DNA of 35,173 bases from Candidatus Parakkermansia intestinigallinarum. GTDB taxonomy: Bacteria > Verrucomicrobiota > Verrucomicrobiia > Verrucomicrobiales > Akkermansiaceae. Positions 7,910 to 33,263 of this stretch are shown in pieces. The position numbers and the translations under genes are program-made. Within the stretch, counting starts at the first letter, position 1; every line of letters starts with the position of its first letter. The DNA is taken from the NCBI GenBank assembly GCA_019114365.1, contig DXFQ01000058.1, positions 1-35,173 on the forward strand, written 5' to 3'. The notes beneath the pieces are model-generated. The model saw only the letters and a list, made by a program, of their open reading frames with translations, was not told the origin of the DNA and made no database searches.

Positions 7910-7938
7910 TTGACTATTGAGCCGTCCTCTGCTACCCT
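7910..7938 (+). promoter_or_regulatory. Promoter of efp
   Basis: TTGACT (7910-7915), a 17-bp spacer and TACCCT (7933-7938) make a good sigma-70-type promoter. Only 9 nt separate the -10 from the ATG at 7948, so transcription should begin within a few bases of the start codon and the mRNA is probably leaderless or nearly so. Confidence 0.75.
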
Positions 7939-7947
7939 CCCGCCGCT

Positions 7948-8517
7948 ATGGCAAAAGTCCCCGTTATCCAACTTCGCAAAGGCCACGCCGTGAATTACAA
8001 CGGCGACATCTGCGTGGTGCGTGAGAGCCAGCTCAAGACTCCTCCCCGCATGGCATCCTACGTCCAGATGACTATTCGCAGCATCGCTACCAAGAAGGAC
8101 TACAACCTTCGTCTGACCTCCAACGACTTCCTCGAGGGCGTGATGCTCAGCCGCGAAGAGATGGAGTTCTCGTACGTGGACGGCATGGGCTACCACTTCC
8201 TCAACACCGAGACTTACGAGGACGTTTGCGTGCCCGAGGATATCGTCGAGCCCGTCAAGGACTACCTCATGGAGGGCAACTCCTACATCCTGCTCTTCAC
8301 TGATGAGACCGTCTGCTCCATCGAGCTTCCGGCCGCCATCACGATGGAGGTTGCCGAGGCCCCCGAGGGCGTCAAGGGCAACTCCGCCAACAATGTCTAC
8401 AAGAGCGCAACGATGACCACGGGCCTCGTGGTGCAAGTGCCGCTCTTCATCAACGCCGGCCAGCGCATCTCCGTCAAGACGGAAGACGGCACCTACCTCG
8501 GCCGCGTCAACGGCTGA
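7948..8517 (+). CDS. efp: Elongation factor P
   Basis: This 189-aa protein has the usual EF-P length and three-domain layout: an N-terminal KOW-like domain, the central OB domain beginning near FSYVDGMGYHFLNTETYEDV, and a C-terminal OB domain with GNSANNVYKSATMTTGLVVQVPLF. It binds between the P and E sites and relieves ribosome stalling at polyproline. The tip loop reads KTPPRMASY: by alignment to E. coli (KPGKGQAF) the modified Lys34 is replaced by Arg34. Arginine tips are known in EarP-type EF-P, which is rhamnosylated, but the flanking residues here differ and no earP is present in the window. The polyproline-rich neighbours (8715 and 33467 products) are likely clients. It has its own promoter and terminator. 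Confidence 0.95.
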   Translation: MAKVPVIQLRKGHAVNYNGDICVVRESQLKTPPRMASYVQMTIRSIATKKDYNLRLTSNDFLEGVMLSREEMEFSYVDGMGYHFLNTETYEDVCVPEDIVEPVKDYLMEGNSYILLFTDETVCSIELPAAITMEVAEAPEGVKGNSANNVYKSATMTTGLVVQVPLFINAGQRISVKTEDGTYLGRVNG

Positions 8518-8670: not shown

Positions 8671-8699
8671 TTGCATTCCCTTTGTCGGCGTGCTAGAAT
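8671..8699 (+). promoter_or_regulatory. Promoter of the 8715-icd operon
   Basis: TTGCAT (8671-8676), a 17-bp spacer and TAGAAT (8694-8699) lie 15 nt before the ATG at 8715, predicting a leader of roughly 9 nt. Confidence 0.7.
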
Positions 8700-8714
8700 G
8701 GCCGAAACCTCAGT

Positions 8715-16177: not shown

Positions 16178-17545
16178 TCAGTCGAGTTTGTAGCTCTTGC
16201 CGGGCTGCGGGATGATGATCTGCGTCTGCGGAAGGCGCTGTTGCAGCGTCTCGCGCGTCTGCTCGAGGGCACCTTCGTCGCCGTGCACGAGCAGAATGGT
16301 GCGCGGAGCAAGAGTAACGGCGTAGTCAATGAGCGCCTCGCGCGTCGCGTGACCGGAGAAATCAAAACACTCCGTGCGGCAGAGCAGGGGGTAGGCCTGG
16401 CCGCCCTTCTCCTGCAGCTTGACGAGACTGCCCGGCGCGGCCGCCTTGATTTTGCCGGCGGGGGAGTCGGGGTCGCTGTAGCCGACGAAGAGAATGGCGT
16501 CTTTCGGGTGCGGCATCACCTGCGCCGCCAGCAGGTTGGAGACCGTGTGCTCGCTCATCATGCCGCTGGAGACAAGGTAAATGTTGCCCGGCGAGGCGAT
16601 GAGCGGCGCCTTGCCCTGTTTGGGCAGACCGTAAGTCTCAACCTCATCGCGCAGGCGGTAACCCGGTTTGAGGCGGGGCGTGCTGTCGGCCGTCTTGTCG
16701 TAGATGAGCGTGATTTTGGAGCTCAGACCGCCGAAATAGACCGGAACGTCGGGGATGAGCCCCTCGCGTTTGAATCGCCCGATTTCGCAGAGCAATTCCT
16801 GACTCTTGCCGAGGGCAAACACGGGGATGAGGACGGCACCGCCGCCCTCGATCGTCTCGCGTATCGCGTCGGCAAAGCGCCGCAGCTCAGCCTCGCGTGT
16901 GTAATCGCTGCGCCGTTGCGTGCTGCCGTGCGTGCACTCCATGAGCAGAATGTCGATGCCCTTCTGCGGGAAGTCGGCTCCGGCGATGAGCGTCTGGTTT
17001 TCAAACTGCACGTCGCCCGTGTAGAAGAGCGTCGCGCCGCTCTCGCTCTCGAGCTCAACGCCGCAGGAGCCGAGAATGTGCCCGGCGTCGTGCAGCGTCG
17101 CCAGCACGGCGCCGCGGCGGCCGGTGCGGAAGGCTTCGTTGTAGGGCCGCACCATCCAGCTGCGCGCGGCGTGCTCGAGCTCGTGGTGCGTGAAGAAGGG
17201 GTACTCGATGATGCCCTCCTGCAGGCGTTTTGAGGTCATCACGTTGACGGAGTTGTGCAGCATGGCTTCGCCGACGATGGCCGTTCCGGCAGTCATGATC
17301 ACTTCGGCGGCTGGGTGTGCATCTTGGAGAACGGGCAGAGTGCCGATGTGGTCGAGGTGGGCGTGGGTGATGAAAATGACATCCGGATCGGCCGCCCCGA
17401 TCAGACTGTAGTCCGGCATAGCCTCGCGTCCGTCCTTTTTGGGGTGCATGCCGGCATCGAGCACGATGCGCACACCGTCCATGTCGAGCAGGTAGCTATT
17501 GGAGCCGATTTCGGCGGCTCCCGTCATGTTGGTGAATGTAATCAT
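16178..17545 (-). CDS. MBL-fold/beta-CASP RNA-processing nuclease family protein
   Basis: The 455-aa protein has the metallo-beta-lactamase signature THAHLDHIG (about residue 69-78), an aspartate in FYTGDVQFENQ, and beta-CASP features: LMECTHGS, AVLIPVFALGKSQELL, LVSSGMMSEHTVSNLL and FSGHATREAL, with a late histidine in ILLVHGDEGALEQ. These match the CPSF73/YSH1-like RNase group (sometimes annotated as RNA exonuclease), which cleaves RNA with two zinc ions. It has the usual 450-460 aa length and no KH domain. The start at 17545 (MITFTNMTGAAEIGSN) is chosen because the other ATG, 17563, falls inside the -10 box. The gene is a single transcription unit with its own promoter. Confidence 0.9.
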   Translation of the reverse strand: MITFTNMTGAAEIGSNSYLLDMDGVRIVLDAGMHPKKDGREAMPDYSLIGAADPDVIFITHAHLDHIGTLPVLQDAHPAAEVIMTAGTAIVGEAMLHNSVNVMTSKRLQEGIIEYPFFTHHELEHAARSWMVRPYNEAFRTGRRGAVLATLHDAGHILGSCGVELESESGATLFYTGDVQFENQTLIAGADFPQKGIDILLMECTHGSTQRRSDYTREAELRRFADAIRETIEGGGAVLIPVFALGKSQELLCEIGRFKREGLIPDVPVYFGGLSSKITLIYDKTADSTPRLKPGYRLRDEVETYGLPKQGKAPLIASPGNIYLVSSGMMSEHTVSNLLAAQVMPHPKDAILFVGYSDPDSPAGKIKAAAPGSLVKLQEKGGQAYPLLCRTECFDFSGHATREALIDYAVTLAPRTILLVHGDEGALEQTRETLQQRLPQTQIIIPQPGKSYKLD

Positions 17546-17561
17546 GAAAATGAGCGGCGGC

Positions 17562-17590
17562 ATTGTGCCTCAAGATACCCCTCTTGTCAA
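17562..17590 (-). promoter_or_regulatory. Promoter of the MBL/beta-CASP gene
   Basis: On the minus strand TTGACA, a 17-bp spacer and CACAAT precede the ATG at 17545 by 16 nt. The perfect -35 and the position decide the start codon of the gene. Confidence 0.72.
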
Positions 17591-23761: not shown

Positions 23762-24169
23762 TTATTCGGCGAGGCGAATGATGCGGTGGGCGGCCATGGC
23801 GGCATTCAGCGGCGTTTTCTTGTGCAGGCCGACCGTGGTGGCGGGCACGCCGCCGGGAAGTTGAGAGATGGCCAGCAGCGCGTCGATGCCGTTGAGCGGG
23901 CCGCAGGGAACGGGCACGCCGATGACGGGCAGCTGCGTGTTCATGACCACGACGCCGGGCAGAGCGGCAGAAAGCCCGGCCACGCAGAGCAAAACGGCCT
24001 TCGTGCCGTCCTCTTCGAGCTTCCGGAGGTAGGCCAGCAGCTCGGGAAGATCGCGGTGAGCCGAGTAGACGACTTCTTCGGCCTCGACTTGGTGTTCTGC
24101 GAAGTACTGGCGAGCCGGTTCCATGAAGGGAAGGTCGCTCTTGCTGCCGTATATGGTGATGACTTTCAT
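23762..24169 (-). CDS. purE: PurE, 5-aminoimidazole ribonucleotide carboxylase/mutase family, short form
   Basis: The 135-aa protein is shorter than the usual 160-170 aa, trimmed mainly at the C-terminus. It has VITIYGSKSDLPFM, SAHRDLPELL (catalytic-site His38) and QLPGGVPATTVGLHKKTPLNAAMAAHRI. The class I motif AGGAAHLPG appears as AGLSAALPG, so the conserved His is Ala; AGLS resembles the class II AIR-carboxylase form that uses CO2 directly. Class is therefore uncertain. It sits at the head of the seven-gene minus-strand run with its own promoter only 9 nt upstream of the ATG. No purK is seen in the window. Confidence 0.9.
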   Translation of the reverse strand: MKVITIYGSKSDLPFMEPARQYFAEHQVEAEEVVYSAHRDLPELLAYLRKLEEDGTKAVLLCVAGLSAALPGVVVMNTQLPVIGVPVPCGPLNGIDALLAISQLPGGVPATTVGLHKKTPLNAAMAAHRIIRLAE

Positions 24170-24178
24170 GCGCCGCTT

Positions 24179-24208
24179 ATCTTAGCACGCCGGGGCCGGC
24201 GGACGCAA
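24179..24208 (-). promoter_or_regulatory. Promoter of the purE-pyrRBC'-glycosyltransferase run
   Basis: On the minus strand TTGCGT, an 18-bp spacer and TAAGAT end 9 nt before the purE ATG, giving a predicted leaderless or 2-3-nt-leader mRNA. This is the only good promoter seen upstream of the seven genes. Confidence 0.7.
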
Positions 24209-24257: not shown

Positions 24258-24863
24258 TCAGCGGTGGTCATCGCCCAGCAGACCTTGGAGGATTTTGTGG
24301 GCGTAGTGGAGGCGCGAGCGGAGAGTCCCTTCCGTGATGTTGAGCAGGGCAGATATCTCGGCAAAGCTCTTGCCTTGAATGTCGAAGAGCGTGACAACCT
24401 CGCGCTGGGCGGGCGAGAGCTGATCCATGGCGGCGCGCAGGCGCTGCTTGAGCTCGCTGACGTGCGCGTTGCGCGTCGGGTCGGCCGCGCGACTTTCGTC
24501 GGCAAGCTCGCTGCGCTTGTCTATGGGGGTGGCGTCTGCGTCGTTGTCGATGCTGAAGGAGTTTTCGCGTTTTTTGCGGCGCAGCAGGTTGCGGGCGCGG
24601 TTGGCGGCTATCGAGTAGAGCCAGGTGAAGAAGGCGCTGCGCCCGCTGAAGTAGCGCAGGGAGTGAAAGGCCTTGAGGAAGGCGTCCTGAGCGATGTCGT
24701 AGGCATCGGCTTCTGACCGCAGCATTTGCAGCAGCATGGCGTGCAGCTTGCGACTGTGCCTCTTGACCAGAACGTCGTAAGCTTTGACATTGCCCTCCAA
24801 GGTGATGCGAATCAACTCCTCATCGGTGCGATCGTTGAGGCTCTGTTGCGTTTCATCAGGCAT
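24258..24863 (-). CDS. ECF-type sigma-70 family RNA polymerase sigma factor
   Basis: The 201-aa protein has sigma region 2 (DAYDIAQDAFLKAFHSLRYFSGRSAFFTWLYSIAANRARNLLRRKKRE) and region 4 (LSPAQREVVTLFDIQGKSFAEISALLNITEGTLRSRLHYAHKIL), joined by an acidic linker of about 45 residues. Regions 1 and 3 are absent, as in the RpoE/ECF group. No adjacent anti-sigma gene is seen: the next minus-strand gene downstream is purE, and upstream is the purine-rich spacer. It therefore may be controlled by an unlinked anti-sigma or by transcription alone. Candidate -10 TACCCT boxes lie upstream on the minus strand without a well-spaced -35. Confidence 0.93.
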   Translation of the reverse strand: MPDETQQSLNDRTDEELIRITLEGNVKAYDVLVKRHSRKLHAMLLQMLRSEADAYDIAQDAFLKAFHSLRYFSGRSAFFTWLYSIAANRARNLLRRKKRENSFSIDNDADATPIDKRSELADESRAADPTRNAHVSELKQRLRAAMDQLSPAQREVVTLFDIQGKSFAEISALLNITEGTLRSRLHYAHKILQGLLGDDHR

Positions 24864-25210
24864 GGCGGTGGGGTAGGGTAGGTGTGGGTGAGAAAATCAA
24901 AGCTTCGCAGCGGTGGCGCTTTGCCGAGTGCGTCTTGACCGGAGGATTCGGAGAGGAAGGGAGAGGCGCAGCAAGAGCGAGCGGAGGAGGGGCGAGCGGA
25001 GGAGGGAGGGGCGAGCGGAGTATGAGTCGGCGGGGCAGCTGCGAGCGAAAGGAAGGTGAAGGGGAGGGGTAGCGGTAGCGGGGAGTGGGAGAGGGAGTGG
25101 GAGAGGGAGAGCGGGTGCGGGGTGAGGAGGCGGGGGCTTTCTGCTTGGGAGGTGCTGAGGTCGGGAGGTGCTGCGGGTGAAACGGAGGGGGAGAGGAGGA
25201 CTGTCGTGAT
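24864..25210. repeat. Purine-rich low-complexity spacer with G-quadruplex repeats
   Basis: The plus strand is almost entirely G/A-rich over about 300 bp. It holds three GCGAGCGGAG copies between 24977 and 25020 and, at 25081-25107, a 12-bp tandem unit GGGAGTGGGAGA in just over two copies, which satisfies a G3-N3 quadruplex pattern. Open frames here exist only because of the composition. The minus-strand transcript would be pyrimidine-rich. Confidence 0.75.
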
Positions 25211-28364: not shown

Positions 28365-30614
28365 TCAGCTGAAGGTGTAGGCGTCGATATCCAGCGTGGC
28401 GATGATGTCCTCGCCGAAGCCCATGGCTTGGATCTCGCGCGAGCCGATTTCGGCGATGACGCGCGCGCCCGGCGCGCAGAGTGTGCACTGGTAGCGGTAC
28501 TGCCCGTAGCTCTTGGCGATGGGCGAGGGAATGGGCGGGCTGAGCTGTACCGTGGGCGGCAGGGCCTGTTCCAGACGCCGATGCAGCGATTCGATGCCGA
28601 AGCGAGCCAGTTCTTCCTGCACCGAGCGCACCGTCAGCACCGCCATGTGCGAGAAGGGCGGGTAGTTGAAGCGGCGGCGCAGTTCCAGTTCGGCCTCGGC
28701 AAAGCCGTCGGTGTCGTGCCGTCTGGCAAATTGAATGGCCGGAGCCTGCGGCGTGAAGGTTTGGATGATGACCTCGCCGTCGAGCTCGCCGCGCCCGGCG
28801 CGGCCGGCGACTTGCGTGAGGAGTTGAAAGCTGCGCTCGCCGGCGCGGGGATCGGGGATGCTCAGGCCGATGTCGGCGTTGAGCACGCCTACCAGCGTGA
28901 CGCCCGGAAAGTCGAGCCCTTTGGAAATCATCTGCGTGCCGAGCAGAATATCGATGCGGTGCGCGCGGAAATCGGCCAGAATGTCGCGCAGCGCGTTTTT
29001 GCGGGCGGCGACGTCTGCGTCGATGCGCTGCAGGCGCGCCTGCGGGTAGCAGCGCCGCAGGATGGCCTCGACTTTCTGCGTGCCGCAGCCCTCGAGCAGG
29101 ATGCCGCGCGAGCCGCATTCGGGGCAGGCGTGCGGCACGACGGCGCGGAAGCCGCAGATGTGGCAGATGAGGCGGTTCTCCGTCACGTGGTAGGTCAGGG
29201 GCAGGGAGCAGTGCTCGCAGGTGACGATGTGCCCGCAGTCGGGGCACTGCAAGGAGCGCGCAAAGCCGCGGCGGTTGAGAAAGAGGATGGTTTGTTCGCC
29301 GCGCGCGAGGCGCTCGTCGATGGCCATGCGCAGGCGCTCGCTGAGAATGCCCTGATAGCGCTTGTCCTTGGGTTCCGTGCGCATGTCCAGCACGCGGGTG
29401 AGCGGCAGGCGCTGGCCGTCGGCTCGGTGGTCGAGGCGCAGCATGCGGTACTTGCCCGTTTGGGCGTTGTGCAGCGATTCGAGCGAGGGGGTTGCCGAGC
29501 CCAGCACGATGGTGGCGCCTTCCATGCGTGCGCGCAGAACGGCGAGGTCGCGTCCTTGGTAGCGCGGGCTGTTTTCCTGTTTATAGGAGGCGTCGTGCTC
29601 TTCGTCGACGATGATGAGACCGAGCTGCTGAACGGGTGCGAAGACGGCGGAGCGCGGCCCGATGGCGATGCGCGCCTGCCCCCGGCGGATGGCATGCCAC
29701 TCGTCGAAGCGCTCGCCGTCGCTCATGGCGCTGTGCAGAATGGCTACGGCGCCGGGGCTCTCGGCAAAGCGGCTTTTGAAGCGAGCCATGGTCTGCGGCG
29801 TGAGCGAAATCTCCGGCACGAGAATCAGCACGCCTTTGCCGGCCGCCATGGCGCGCGCCGCCGCTTGCAGGTAGACCTCGGTTTTGCCGGACCCCGTCAC
29901 GCCCTGCAGCAGCAAGGGGCGGGATGAGCCTGCGTCGAAGGCTTCGTTGATGCAGGCGAGGGCCCGAGCTTGTTCCTCATTGAGCTCGAGCGGCTGCGAG
30001 GGGGCAAAGACTTCGTTGCCCGCAGGATCGCGCTTCACCTGCTCTTCGGTGATTTCGACGAGTCCGCGCCGCTCCAGAGCGCGGGCCGGAGCCAGCGCCG
30101 AACTGCCGCCCAAGTCGCTGAGGGCGGCTCGCTGCCCATCGGCGGCTTGGAGTTGGCGCAGCAGGGAGGCTTGGCGCGGCGCTCGAGCGTTGATTTTGTT
30201 GAGCTGCTCATCATCGGGCATGTGCAGCAGGTGCAGCACCTTGCGCGTCTTCTCCTCGTGCCGCTCCTGCCGTACGGCCTCGGGCACCATGCAGCGAATC
30301 ATTTGCTCGACCGGCACCGCGTAGTAGTGAGAGGCCCATTCGGCCAGATCCAGCAGCGTCGGCGAGACGATGGGTCGCTCATCAATGGCCCGCAGGATCG
30401 CCCGCAGGCGGTTTCTCAGCGCCGGGTCGGGATCGACGAGATCCAGCACGGTGCCGACAGCTTTGCCGCCGCGCAGCGGTACCTCGACGCGAAAGCCGCG
30501 GCTGACGGACTCAAGCCCGGGGGGGATGGCGTAATCGAGAGCCATGTCGTCGCGCCCGTCTACCAGAACACGGGCAAGCTTGAGCGGAGGCGCCTCGCTG
30601 AAGAGCTCCTGCAT
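28365..30614 (-). CDS. priA: Primosomal replication protein N' (PriA helicase)
   Basis: The 749-aa helicase restarts stalled replication forks. It shows the 3'-DNA-binding N-terminal domain (about 1-110), Walker A GVTGSGKT (238-245), Walker B DEEH (337-340), helicase motifs LGSATPSLES and GTQMISKGLDFPGVTLVG, and QVAGRAGRG. The zinc-binding region has eight cysteines: C457xxC460, C466xxC469, C484xxC487 and C497xxC500. Length matches E. coli PriA (about 730 aa). It lies downstream of khpA with a 243-bp purine-rich spacer between them; no clear promoter is visible in that spacer. Confidence 0.97.
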   Translation of the reverse strand: MQELFSEAPPLKLARVLVDGRDDMALDYAIPPGLESVSRGFRVEVPLRGGKAVGTVLDLVDPDPALRNRLRAILRAIDERPIVSPTLLDLAEWASHYYAVPVEQMIRCMVPEAVRQERHEEKTRKVLHLLHMPDDEQLNKINARAPRQASLLRQLQAADGQRAALSDLGGSSALAPARALERRGLVEITEEQVKRDPAGNEVFAPSQPLELNEEQARALACINEAFDAGSSRPLLLQGVTGSGKTEVYLQAAARAMAAGKGVLILVPEISLTPQTMARFKSRFAESPGAVAILHSAMSDGERFDEWHAIRRGQARIAIGPRSAVFAPVQQLGLIIVDEEHDASYKQENSPRYQGRDLAVLRARMEGATIVLGSATPSLESLHNAQTGKYRMLRLDHRADGQRLPLTRVLDMRTEPKDKRYQGILSERLRMAIDERLARGEQTILFLNRRGFARSLQCPDCGHIVTCEHCSLPLTYHVTENRLICHICGFRAVVPHACPECGSRGILLEGCGTQKVEAILRRCYPQARLQRIDADVAARKNALRDILADFRAHRIDILLGTQMISKGLDFPGVTLVGVLNADIGLSIPDPRAGERSFQLLTQVAGRAGRGELDGEVIIQTFTPQAPAIQFARRHDTDGFAEAELELRRRFNYPPFSHMAVLTVRSVQEELARFGIESLHRRLEQALPPTVQLSPPIPSPIAKSYGQYRYQCTLCAPGARVIAEIGSREIQAMGFGEDIIATLDIDAYTFS

Positions 30615-30857
30615 GGGGGAAAAGGAGGAGGAAAGGGGTGTGCGGAGAGTGGGAAAAGCCGGAAGTCGGAAGACGGAGACTCGGAGTAGAGGGACGAAAG
30701 CCGGAGGCGCAGGAGGGAGGCGGTAGACGGATGCTCGGAGACTCAGAGGCGGGGAGGAGGCTCGGAGGCGAGAGGCGTGGAGTCGGGGGCGTCCGTCCTG
30801 CCGAAGGCGGGGAAGGGGGGGGCGAGGGAGGGGCGGACAAGCCTCGCCCGAGGAAAC
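30615..30857. repeat. Purine-rich spacer with a G-quadruplex motif between khpA and priA
   Basis: The plus strand is again strongly G/A-rich, with repeated CTCGGAG words. At 30809-30833 four G-runs (GGGG, GGGGGGGG, GGG, GGGG) are separated by 1-3 nt, a strong quadruplex candidate. ORFs listed here are composition artefacts. Confidence 0.7.
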
Positions 30858-31130
30858 TCAGTCGAGCTCCTCTTCCGAAAGAATGTGCACGACCACCTTG
30901 ATGCCCTGTTTCTCGCCGGCGGCCTTGGCCATCGAGCGTATGGCGGAGGCCGTCATGCCGTTGCGGCCGATGACGCGTGCCACGTCCTCGTGTTTGAGAA
31001 TCAAACGAAAGCGCACCATGTCTCCCCGGGGAGTCGAAGCCACGCGCAGCTGAGCTGCTTCGGGATGCTTGATGAGCGGCCCGATGACCGCAAGAAGATA
31101 TCGACCGATGGATTCGACTAATTGCTGCAT
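30858..31130 (-). CDS. khpA: KH-domain RNA-binding protein KhpA
   Basis: The 90-aa protein is a single KH domain with the GxxG loop as GRNG in VARVIGRNGMTASAIRSMAKAAG, an N-terminal helix MQQLVESIGRYLLAVIGPLIKHPEAA and an acidic tail. It matches KhpA/YlqC, a small RNA chaperone linked to cell division and envelope control in Firmicutes, where it pairs with KhpB; no khpB is seen here. The start at 31130 gives the family N-terminus; the track start 31157 is within the leader. It has a very good promoter about 50 nt upstream. Confidence 0.9.
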   Translation of the reverse strand: MQQLVESIGRYLLAVIGPLIKHPEAAQLRVASTPRGDMVRFRLILKHEDVARVIGRNGMTASAIRSMAKAAGEKQGIKVVVHILSEEELD

Positions 31131-31180
31131 ATGGCTGAAACGGGGGTGCCGCGGCATGAAAGGTCGCCGACGCTTGGCGT

Positions 31181-31209
31181 ATCTTATGCGATGGTGCGGC
31201 GGCTGTCAA
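31181..31209 (-). promoter_or_regulatory. Promoter of khpA
   Basis: On the minus strand a perfect TTGACA, a 17-bp spacer and TAAGAT precede the ATG by 50 nt. It is the best sigma-70-like match in the window. Confidence 0.82.
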
Positions 31210-31256
31210 GCCTCCATCCGCACCGCCGGAGCTGCATGACAGAATGCGTTGCAAGA

Positions 31257-32139: not shown

Positions 32140-33225
32140 CTAATCTCCGCATCGCTCCCCGCAGCGCAGCTGCGCCGCCCAAGCTCGGTCGGCGCGGGAG
32201 GCGGAGCGGATGGCGAGGAGGTCGAACTCTCCCGCCTGCATCATCAGCAGCAACATGCGGAGTTGTGCGCGAATGTCGCGCTCGCGAGCTTGCTCGGAGA
32301 CGGCTTGCGAGCAAACCGCAGCGCCGGCCGCTATCACGGGGCGGTCCGTCAGATAGCGCACCCAGCCTGCAAAGCTGCGGCCGCTGCCCGCAAACGCAGG
32401 CTGCGTGACGGAATCCGACGCACACTCAAAGATATCAACGCCGGCCTCGGCAAGAGGCTGAACGATGTCGGCCAGCTCACCGGGCGTTGAGGCCGGACGA
32501 AGCTCCTGACTCGCGAGCCTCTGAGGCAGGCGCAGAATGACGGGCGTGCGCGCGCCGACGGCACGCCGAACGGCCGCCAGCAGTTCGCGGACAAAGCGCA
32601 GGCGCCCGACGCTGCTTCCCCCGTACTCGTCGCTGCGGCGGTTGGTGGATGCGTGCAGAAACTGGTCAATGAGACCGCCCCCCGGGCCGTTGACGGCGAC
32701 GGCGTCAAAACCGAGCGCGCGGGCTCGCCAAGCGGCGAGTGCGAAGGCATCCGCGATGTCCGCCATGCGGGCTCGGCTCATCGGCTCGCCGACCGCTTGG
32801 AGGGTGACGGGGTGGATGCCCGAAGGACTCAGAGCCGGCTGCTTGCCGACAACGCGGCGCGAGCCGCCTATCCTCAGTTCTCCGGCGTGGTAGAGCCGCG
32901 CGGCGATGCACCCGCCGTTTGCGTGCACGGCGTGCACCACCCTGCGCCAGCGCCGCAGCGACGGCCCCGAGTAAAACTCCGGTGCGTCGGCATCATTCGT
33001 CGCACAGGGCGAGACGGCCAAACCCTCCGTCATCACCAGCCCGATTCCGGCGCTCATGCTGCGCGTGTACGCGCGGAGCAGCTCAACGCTCGGAAGCCCG
33101 CCCGGACACAGACCCCGGTTTCCGGCTTCCAGCACGAGGCGGGTGGGCAAGCAGAGCTTGCGATGGCGAAAGGGCTTGAAAAGAAACTCAACATCGCGGA
33201 GGCAGAGTTCAATGCGGGTATTCAT
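32140..33225 (-). CDS. Old Yellow Enzyme-like FMN oxidoreductase with altered active site
   Basis: The 361-aa protein follows the OYE/NADH:flavin oxidoreductase TIM barrel: an early FKPFRHRKLCLPTRLVLEAGN strand, VMTEGLAVSP, ARLYHAGEL, the LIDQFLHASTNRRSDEYGGS signature and VILRLPQRLA. In typical OYEs the catalytic pair lies in a sequence like HGAHGYL just before the signature. Here it reads N178-G-P-G181-G-G-L: the first position is Asn and the second His/Asn is Gly. FMN-phosphate binding at the C-terminus (VIAAGAAVCSQ...) is weak. It may have lost or changed its reductase activity. The codon and base usage look like the neighbours. It is alone, with its own promoter ending 9 nt before the ATG. 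Confidence 0.85.
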   Translation of the reverse strand: MNTRIELCLRDVEFLFKPFRHRKLCLPTRLVLEAGNRGLCPGGLPSVELLRAYTRSMSAGIGLVMTEGLAVSPCATNDADAPEFYSGPSLRRWRRVVHAVHANGGCIAARLYHAGELRIGGSRRVVGKQPALSPSGIHPVTLQAVGEPMSRARMADIADAFALAAWRARALGFDAVAVNGPGGGLIDQFLHASTNRRSDEYGGSSVGRLRFVRELLAAVRRAVGARTPVILRLPQRLASQELRPASTPGELADIVQPLAEAGVDIFECASDSVTQPAFAGSGRSFAGWVRYLTDRPVIAAGAAVCSQAVSEQARERDIRAQLRMLLLMMQAGEFDLLAIRSASRADRAWAAQLRCGERCGD

Positions 33226-33234
33226 GGTTCTTGT

Positions 33235-33263
33235 ACTCTAAGATCGGCCTTGAGTCTGATCAA
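33235..33263 (-). promoter_or_regulatory. Promoter of the OYE-like gene
   Basis: On the minus strand TTGATC, a 17-bp spacer and TAGAGT end 9 nt before the ATG at 33225, the same distance as at efp and purE. A leaderless or nearly leaderless transcript is predicted. Confidence 0.7.

Follow-up and report, generated by a model that had tools for sequence, protein, structure and literature searches.

Transcription start sites that coincide with gene starts have been described in the genus Akkermansia. Cappable-seq of A. muciniphila from mouse cecum placed 10% of the 886 high-confidence start sites at gene starts, compared with 0.4% in E. coli (PMC4782308, Ettwiller et al. 2016). Akkermansia is also listed among the bacteria in which Shine-Dalgarno (SD) sites are scarce and CCUCC is conserved (PMC10783764); that source defines an mRNA as leaderless when its leader is shorter than 8 nt, so leaders of 2-4 nt count as leaderless. 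Most of the SD-scarce bacteria are Bacteroidota, described elsewhere as using AT-rich non-SD sites, whereas the Akkermansia considered here has promoters that abut the ATG. In Deinococcus, a -10 motif is found approximately 6-7 bp 5' of open reading frames (PMC12340547), and leaderless genes of the TANNNT type, in Deinococcus-Thermus (PMC12340547) as well as in Actinobacteria (Zheng 2011, PMC3160421), likewise have the -10 box approximately 6-7 bp from the start codon, which is also the arrangement here. Verrucomicrobia do not appear in the main text of the latter study (PMC3160421). Leaderless mRNAs in Akkermansia are already reported; what is added here is their extent and the clade.

The window is a stretch of 35,173 nt from an assembly of 2.13 Mb in 174 contigs. 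The nearest records to its elongation factor P (EF-P), up to 98% identical, are from Akkermansia metagenome-assembled genomes (MAGs), a good number of which come from goat, sheep, buffalo and rabbit, and identity to the A. muciniphila protein is about 81%. Judged by these similarities, the genome is that of an uncultured Akkermansia species belonging to a clade of mostly herbivore-gut MAGs. The comparison with A. muciniphila is therefore one within a genus, with start sites at gene starts in both, determined experimentally there and predicted here in an uncultured sister clade.

The preliminary description had placed the -10 boxes of efp, purE and a gene for an OYE-type oxidoreductase 9 nt from the ATG, and this was confirmed for all three. 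Each gene has a sigma-70-type promoter with a -10 box ending 9 nt 5' of the ATG, and the stretch between the two is too short for an SD site. An extra promoter further upstream may be present for any single gene. The features are as follows.

7910-7915, plus strand: -35 box of efp, TTGACT, 17 nt 5' of TACCCT; almost all Akkermansia regions upstream of efp retain TTGAC
7933-7938, plus strand: -10 box of efp, TACCCT, with a gap of 9 nt to the ATG at 7948
7945-7947, plus strand: predicted efp leader GCU, with the G at 7945 as predicted +1, at offset 7 from the -10 box and preceded by C
7948-8517, plus strand: efp, elongation factor P, 189 aa (Pfam EFP_N, EFP, Elong-fact-P_C); orthologues align from the Met
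24203-24208, minus strand: -35 box of purE, TTGCGT, with an 18-nt spacer to the -10 box; TTGC is kept in most Akkermansia purE upstream regions
24179-24184, minus strand: -10 box of purE, TAAGAT, with a gap of 9 nt to the ATG at 24169
23762-24169, minus strand: purE, AIR carboxylase, 135 aa (Pfam AIRC); the Met is conserved
33258-33263, minus strand: -35 box of the OYE gene, TTGATC, 17 nt from the -10 box
33235-33240, minus strand: -10 box of the OYE gene, TAGAGT, with a gap of 9 nt to the ATG at 33225
33226-33228, minus strand: predicted 3-nt leader of the OYE mRNA, ACC, with the A at offset 7 from the -10 box
32140-33225, minus strand: OYE-type NADH:flavin oxidoreductase, 361 aa (Pfam Oxidored_FMN)

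Three further sites in the window carry a candidate -10 box close to a start codon, the last two being weak and lacking a good -35 box.

8671-8714, plus strand: promoter of the 8715 gene, TTGCAT-17-TAGAAT-15-ATG, -10 box at 8694-8699; predicted leader of about 9 nt, no SD site
24875-24880, minus strand: TACCCT, 11 nt 5' of the ATG of an ECF-like sigma factor gene (24258-24863)
17572-17577, minus strand: TATCTT, 8 nt 5' of the ATG of an MBL/beta-CASP gene (16178-17563)

Gaps of 15-16 nt had been proposed for the 8715 and MBL genes. The first holds, at 15 nt; at the MBL gene the sole nearby TAnnnT is the one at 8 nt, with no TTG at 16-18 nt from it. The housekeeping -35 match of the ECF-like sigma factor gene (24258-24863, minus strand) is poor, so another sigma factor could serve it. 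On the minus strand at 31155-31209, TTGACA-17-TAAGAT is followed by an ATG 23 nt 3', all inside a called open reading frame (30511-31254), the true start of which may be further in.

The efp promoter could be followed through the genus. Among same-genus genomes the region upstream of efp has diverged apart from TTGAC, TAnnnT and the distance to the ATG. TAnnnT is present at a gap of 8-11 nt in 53 of 55 distinct Akkermansia upstream regions, 29 of them at 9 and 23 at 10, compared with a mean of 3.1 and a maximum of 10 of 55 when the same regions were shuffled. A G at about -3 also recurs upstream of efp in relatives. In other Verrucomicrobiales, efp is preceded by a TTGC or TTGG box and a TA-rich box near the ATG, without strict TAnnnT being kept, and different families of the order share the start ATG itself. 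For purE, TTGC and TAnnnT at a gap of 9-10 nt are found in most of the genus and not in three more distant loci (L052-L054), while OYE orthologues have TAnnnT at 6-7 nt (L062, L063, L068 and L077). Because the gaps vary among orthologues in this way (efp 8-11, purE 9-10, OYE 6-7), it is the short distance that is kept, with the exact gap drifting.

The spacing was examined across the whole genome by a pattern search that involved no gene calling, with the reversed pattern as the control. The pattern TTG[AC]-17-TAnnnT-(3-14 nt)-ATG occurred at 235 sites, compared with 5 for the control, and TTG[AC]-17-TAnnnT regardless of ATG at 500 sites, compared with 86. The ATG-abutting share is therefore 47% of two-box promoters (235/500), slightly overcounted through a few second ATGs that share a promoter. 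The next window of equal width, gaps of 15-26 nt, held 122 sites, second ATGs of the same genes included. The 10% published for A. muciniphila is lower than this share, and is a proportion of all start sites, intragenic ones included, in a different clade of the genus.

Among 95 listed sites the gap was 6 nt in 31, 9 nt in 15, 7 nt in 11, 10 nt in 10 and 8 nt in 7, with all other gaps at 5 or fewer; the modal gap is 6 nt and 9 nt is second, enriched and not modal. The earlier stress on exactly 9 nt is thus not borne out as a rule. Nor is 9 nt strong as a peak of its own, with 15 sites against 7 and 10 at the neighboring gaps of 8 and 10, and the values at 6 and 9 perhaps belong to one distribution. 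Start-calling bias caused by in-frame TAA or TAG was considered as the source of the excess at 9, and the call-independent search still ranks 9 second. The extended -10 dinucleotide TG was present in 37 of the 95 two-box sites, compared with approximately 5.5 expected from composition.

A gene-based sample gave a concordant picture. It covered 494 kb of the 2.13 Mb genome (the window plus L090-L129) and 330 genes called from codon usage alone; one other genome (G113), for which the gene caller was mis-trained and returned too many GTG and TTG starts, was left out of the conclusions. TAnnnT at a gap of 5-12 nt preceded 22.6% of 257 starts that lead transcription units, compared with 0.8% of 2416 internal ATGs; at 73 operon-internal genes the frequency was 8.2%, equal to that in shuffles. 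When starts were chosen by TAnnnT alone, a TTG lay 16-18 nt upstream in 37 of 58 and exactly 17 nt upstream in 25 of 58. Boxes next to the ATG often come with the -35 box at 17 nt or the extended -10 that mark genuine promoters, and the gap peaks agree with a +1 placed at or just before the start codon.

Transcription usually starts at a pyrimidine-purine initiator. At sites with a gap of 6 nt, C stands directly 5' of the ATG in 27 of 31, so that a +1 on the A of AUG would provide a C-A initiator; as C also precedes 55% of internal ATGs, this is supportive and not decisive. The A of the ATG is thus the predicted +1 at a gap of 6, and the mRNA would be leaderless. At a gap of 9, 12 of 15 sites have a purine seven bases after the -10 box, and from the base composition at these positions we infer that a leader of 2-4 nt, about 3, is more likely than a strictly leaderless mRNA. 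For purE the predicted leader would be 2 or 4 nt, from a G at offset 8 or 6.

The translation signals were consistent with such short leaders. Clear SD sites had been described as scarce, and in the 494-kb sample of the window's own genome SD motifs are in fact at background, preceding 8.2% of starts, compared with 9.0% in shuffles; the identical gene caller applied to E. coli gave 52% and 10%. No 16S gene was found in the window's own assembly. Two other Akkermansia genomes (G004, G017) and one further Verrucomicrobiales genome (G029) carry an intact anti-SD sequence, GGATCACCTCCTTTC, and the SD-scarce bacteria among which Akkermansia is listed (PMC10783764) are thereby matched in both respects. 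A multi-domain S1 gene is present as a 660-aa open frame with at least six S1 domains. The plasmid of D. deserti, a known user of leaderless mRNAs, has its TAnnnT gap peak at 6 in the identical test, as here. It differs in keeping SD sites (39% vs 12% in shuffles), whereas the Akkermansia has none above background. A second difference is the TTG box, common here and not observed close to the start in the sample of D. deserti.

Operon-internal starts of the same sample (the window plus L090-L129) are also without SD sites. They have C at -2 in 55%, compared with 22% at internal ATGs, and A at +4 and +5 in 59% and 45%, compared with 25% and 26%. These base preferences are possibly an SD-independent start context.

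The favored explanation for these observations is that promoters of the efp type yield leaderless or nearly leaderless, SD-free mRNAs as a mode of expression general to this Akkermansia clade, to which we assign a probability of about 0.92. Housekeeping sigma-70-type promoters (TTG[AC]nn, 16-18 nt, TAnnnT) would direct RNA polymerase to start at the A of AUG when the gap is 6, or a few bases earlier when it is 9, which leaves about 3 nt of leader (GCU-AUG for efp). Translation would presumably begin when ribosomes carrying fMet-tRNA recognize the 5'-proximal AUG directly, and about half of the promoters of this type would have an ATG within 14 nt. The expectation of leaderless or near-leaderless mRNAs with little SD, voiced in the preliminary description, is thus supported by the published data on Akkermansia as well as by the spacing, the footprints and the -35 and extended -10 signals, with 6 nt as the typical spacing.

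Were TAnnnT beside the ATG a chance match or an artefact of start calling, the real promoters would lie upstream and the leaders would be ordinary. TAnnnT is a weak motif, and gaps of 6 and 9 nt are in frame, so TAA and TAG stops could bias start calling based on open reading frames. However, the search free of gene calling returned 235 sites against 5, with its peak at 6, unselected -35 and extended -10 signals sit at the right places, and the arrangement is conserved across species and lacking at internal ATGs; this explanation is very improbable. Similarly little weight can be given to the proposal that the promoters are real and the mRNAs leadered, with a later in-frame ATG used and the promoter-proximal one idle. 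A second ATG does lie shortly 3' at some sites, but the products of efp, purE and the OYE gene align with their orthologues from the annotated Met, the efp ATG is kept across families, and there is no SD site at the called starts.

For the three named genes, it is a serious possibility, somewhat short of even odds, that mRNAs with very short leaders (2-9 nt), and not strictly leaderless ones, are the functional form and that the start is recognized independently of SD, through S1 or lack of structure. The purine found at offset 7 in most sites with a gap of 9 (12 of 15) and the presence of the multi-domain S1 gene agree with this, whereas the genome-wide mode is a gap of 6 with the +1 on the A of AUG. 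Functional short leaders overlap with the explanation preferred above, and the two differ only in the exact 5' end and the mode of recognition.

Counts of the two-box-ATG pattern and its reversal were compared across the phylum; since the reversal is not a perfect control, only large contrasts were counted. Related Akkermansia showed a strong excess (241 vs 56 in G043, 367 vs 42 in G088 and 267 vs 58 in G020), which was weaker in Akkermansia of the G004 type (124 vs 39) than in the window's genome (235 vs 5). One family of the same class (f9) had no excess over the reversed control, and the excess was found again in several other classes of the phylum, for example in G142 (152 vs 11) and also in G125, G045 and G044. 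This suggests patchy gain or loss of ATG-abutting promoters across the phylum.

It may be, and we propose this tentatively, that in this Akkermansia clade mRNAs that are leaderless or have leaders of <5 nt dominate the output of the strongest promoters (about half of the consensus ones), that initiation through SD sites has been lost with the anti-SD still intact, and that the combination is undocumented at such extent outside Deinococcota, Actinomycetota and archaea. Gene-start annotation in Akkermansia is affected. Genetic tools for Akkermansia should need no added SD site but should be sensitive to the distance between promoter and ATG. A bacterium that lacks SD sites and yet has an intact anti-SD is also a system for asking how the non-first genes of operons are translated.

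Two further observations were made. In the G031 sample (L160-L169), SD sites before leading starts were depleted below the level of shuffles (0.9% vs 6.2%). In the window's own genome (G000, C72:3652-3723), two divergent two-box promoters have TTGACGC boxes that overlap as an inverted repeat.
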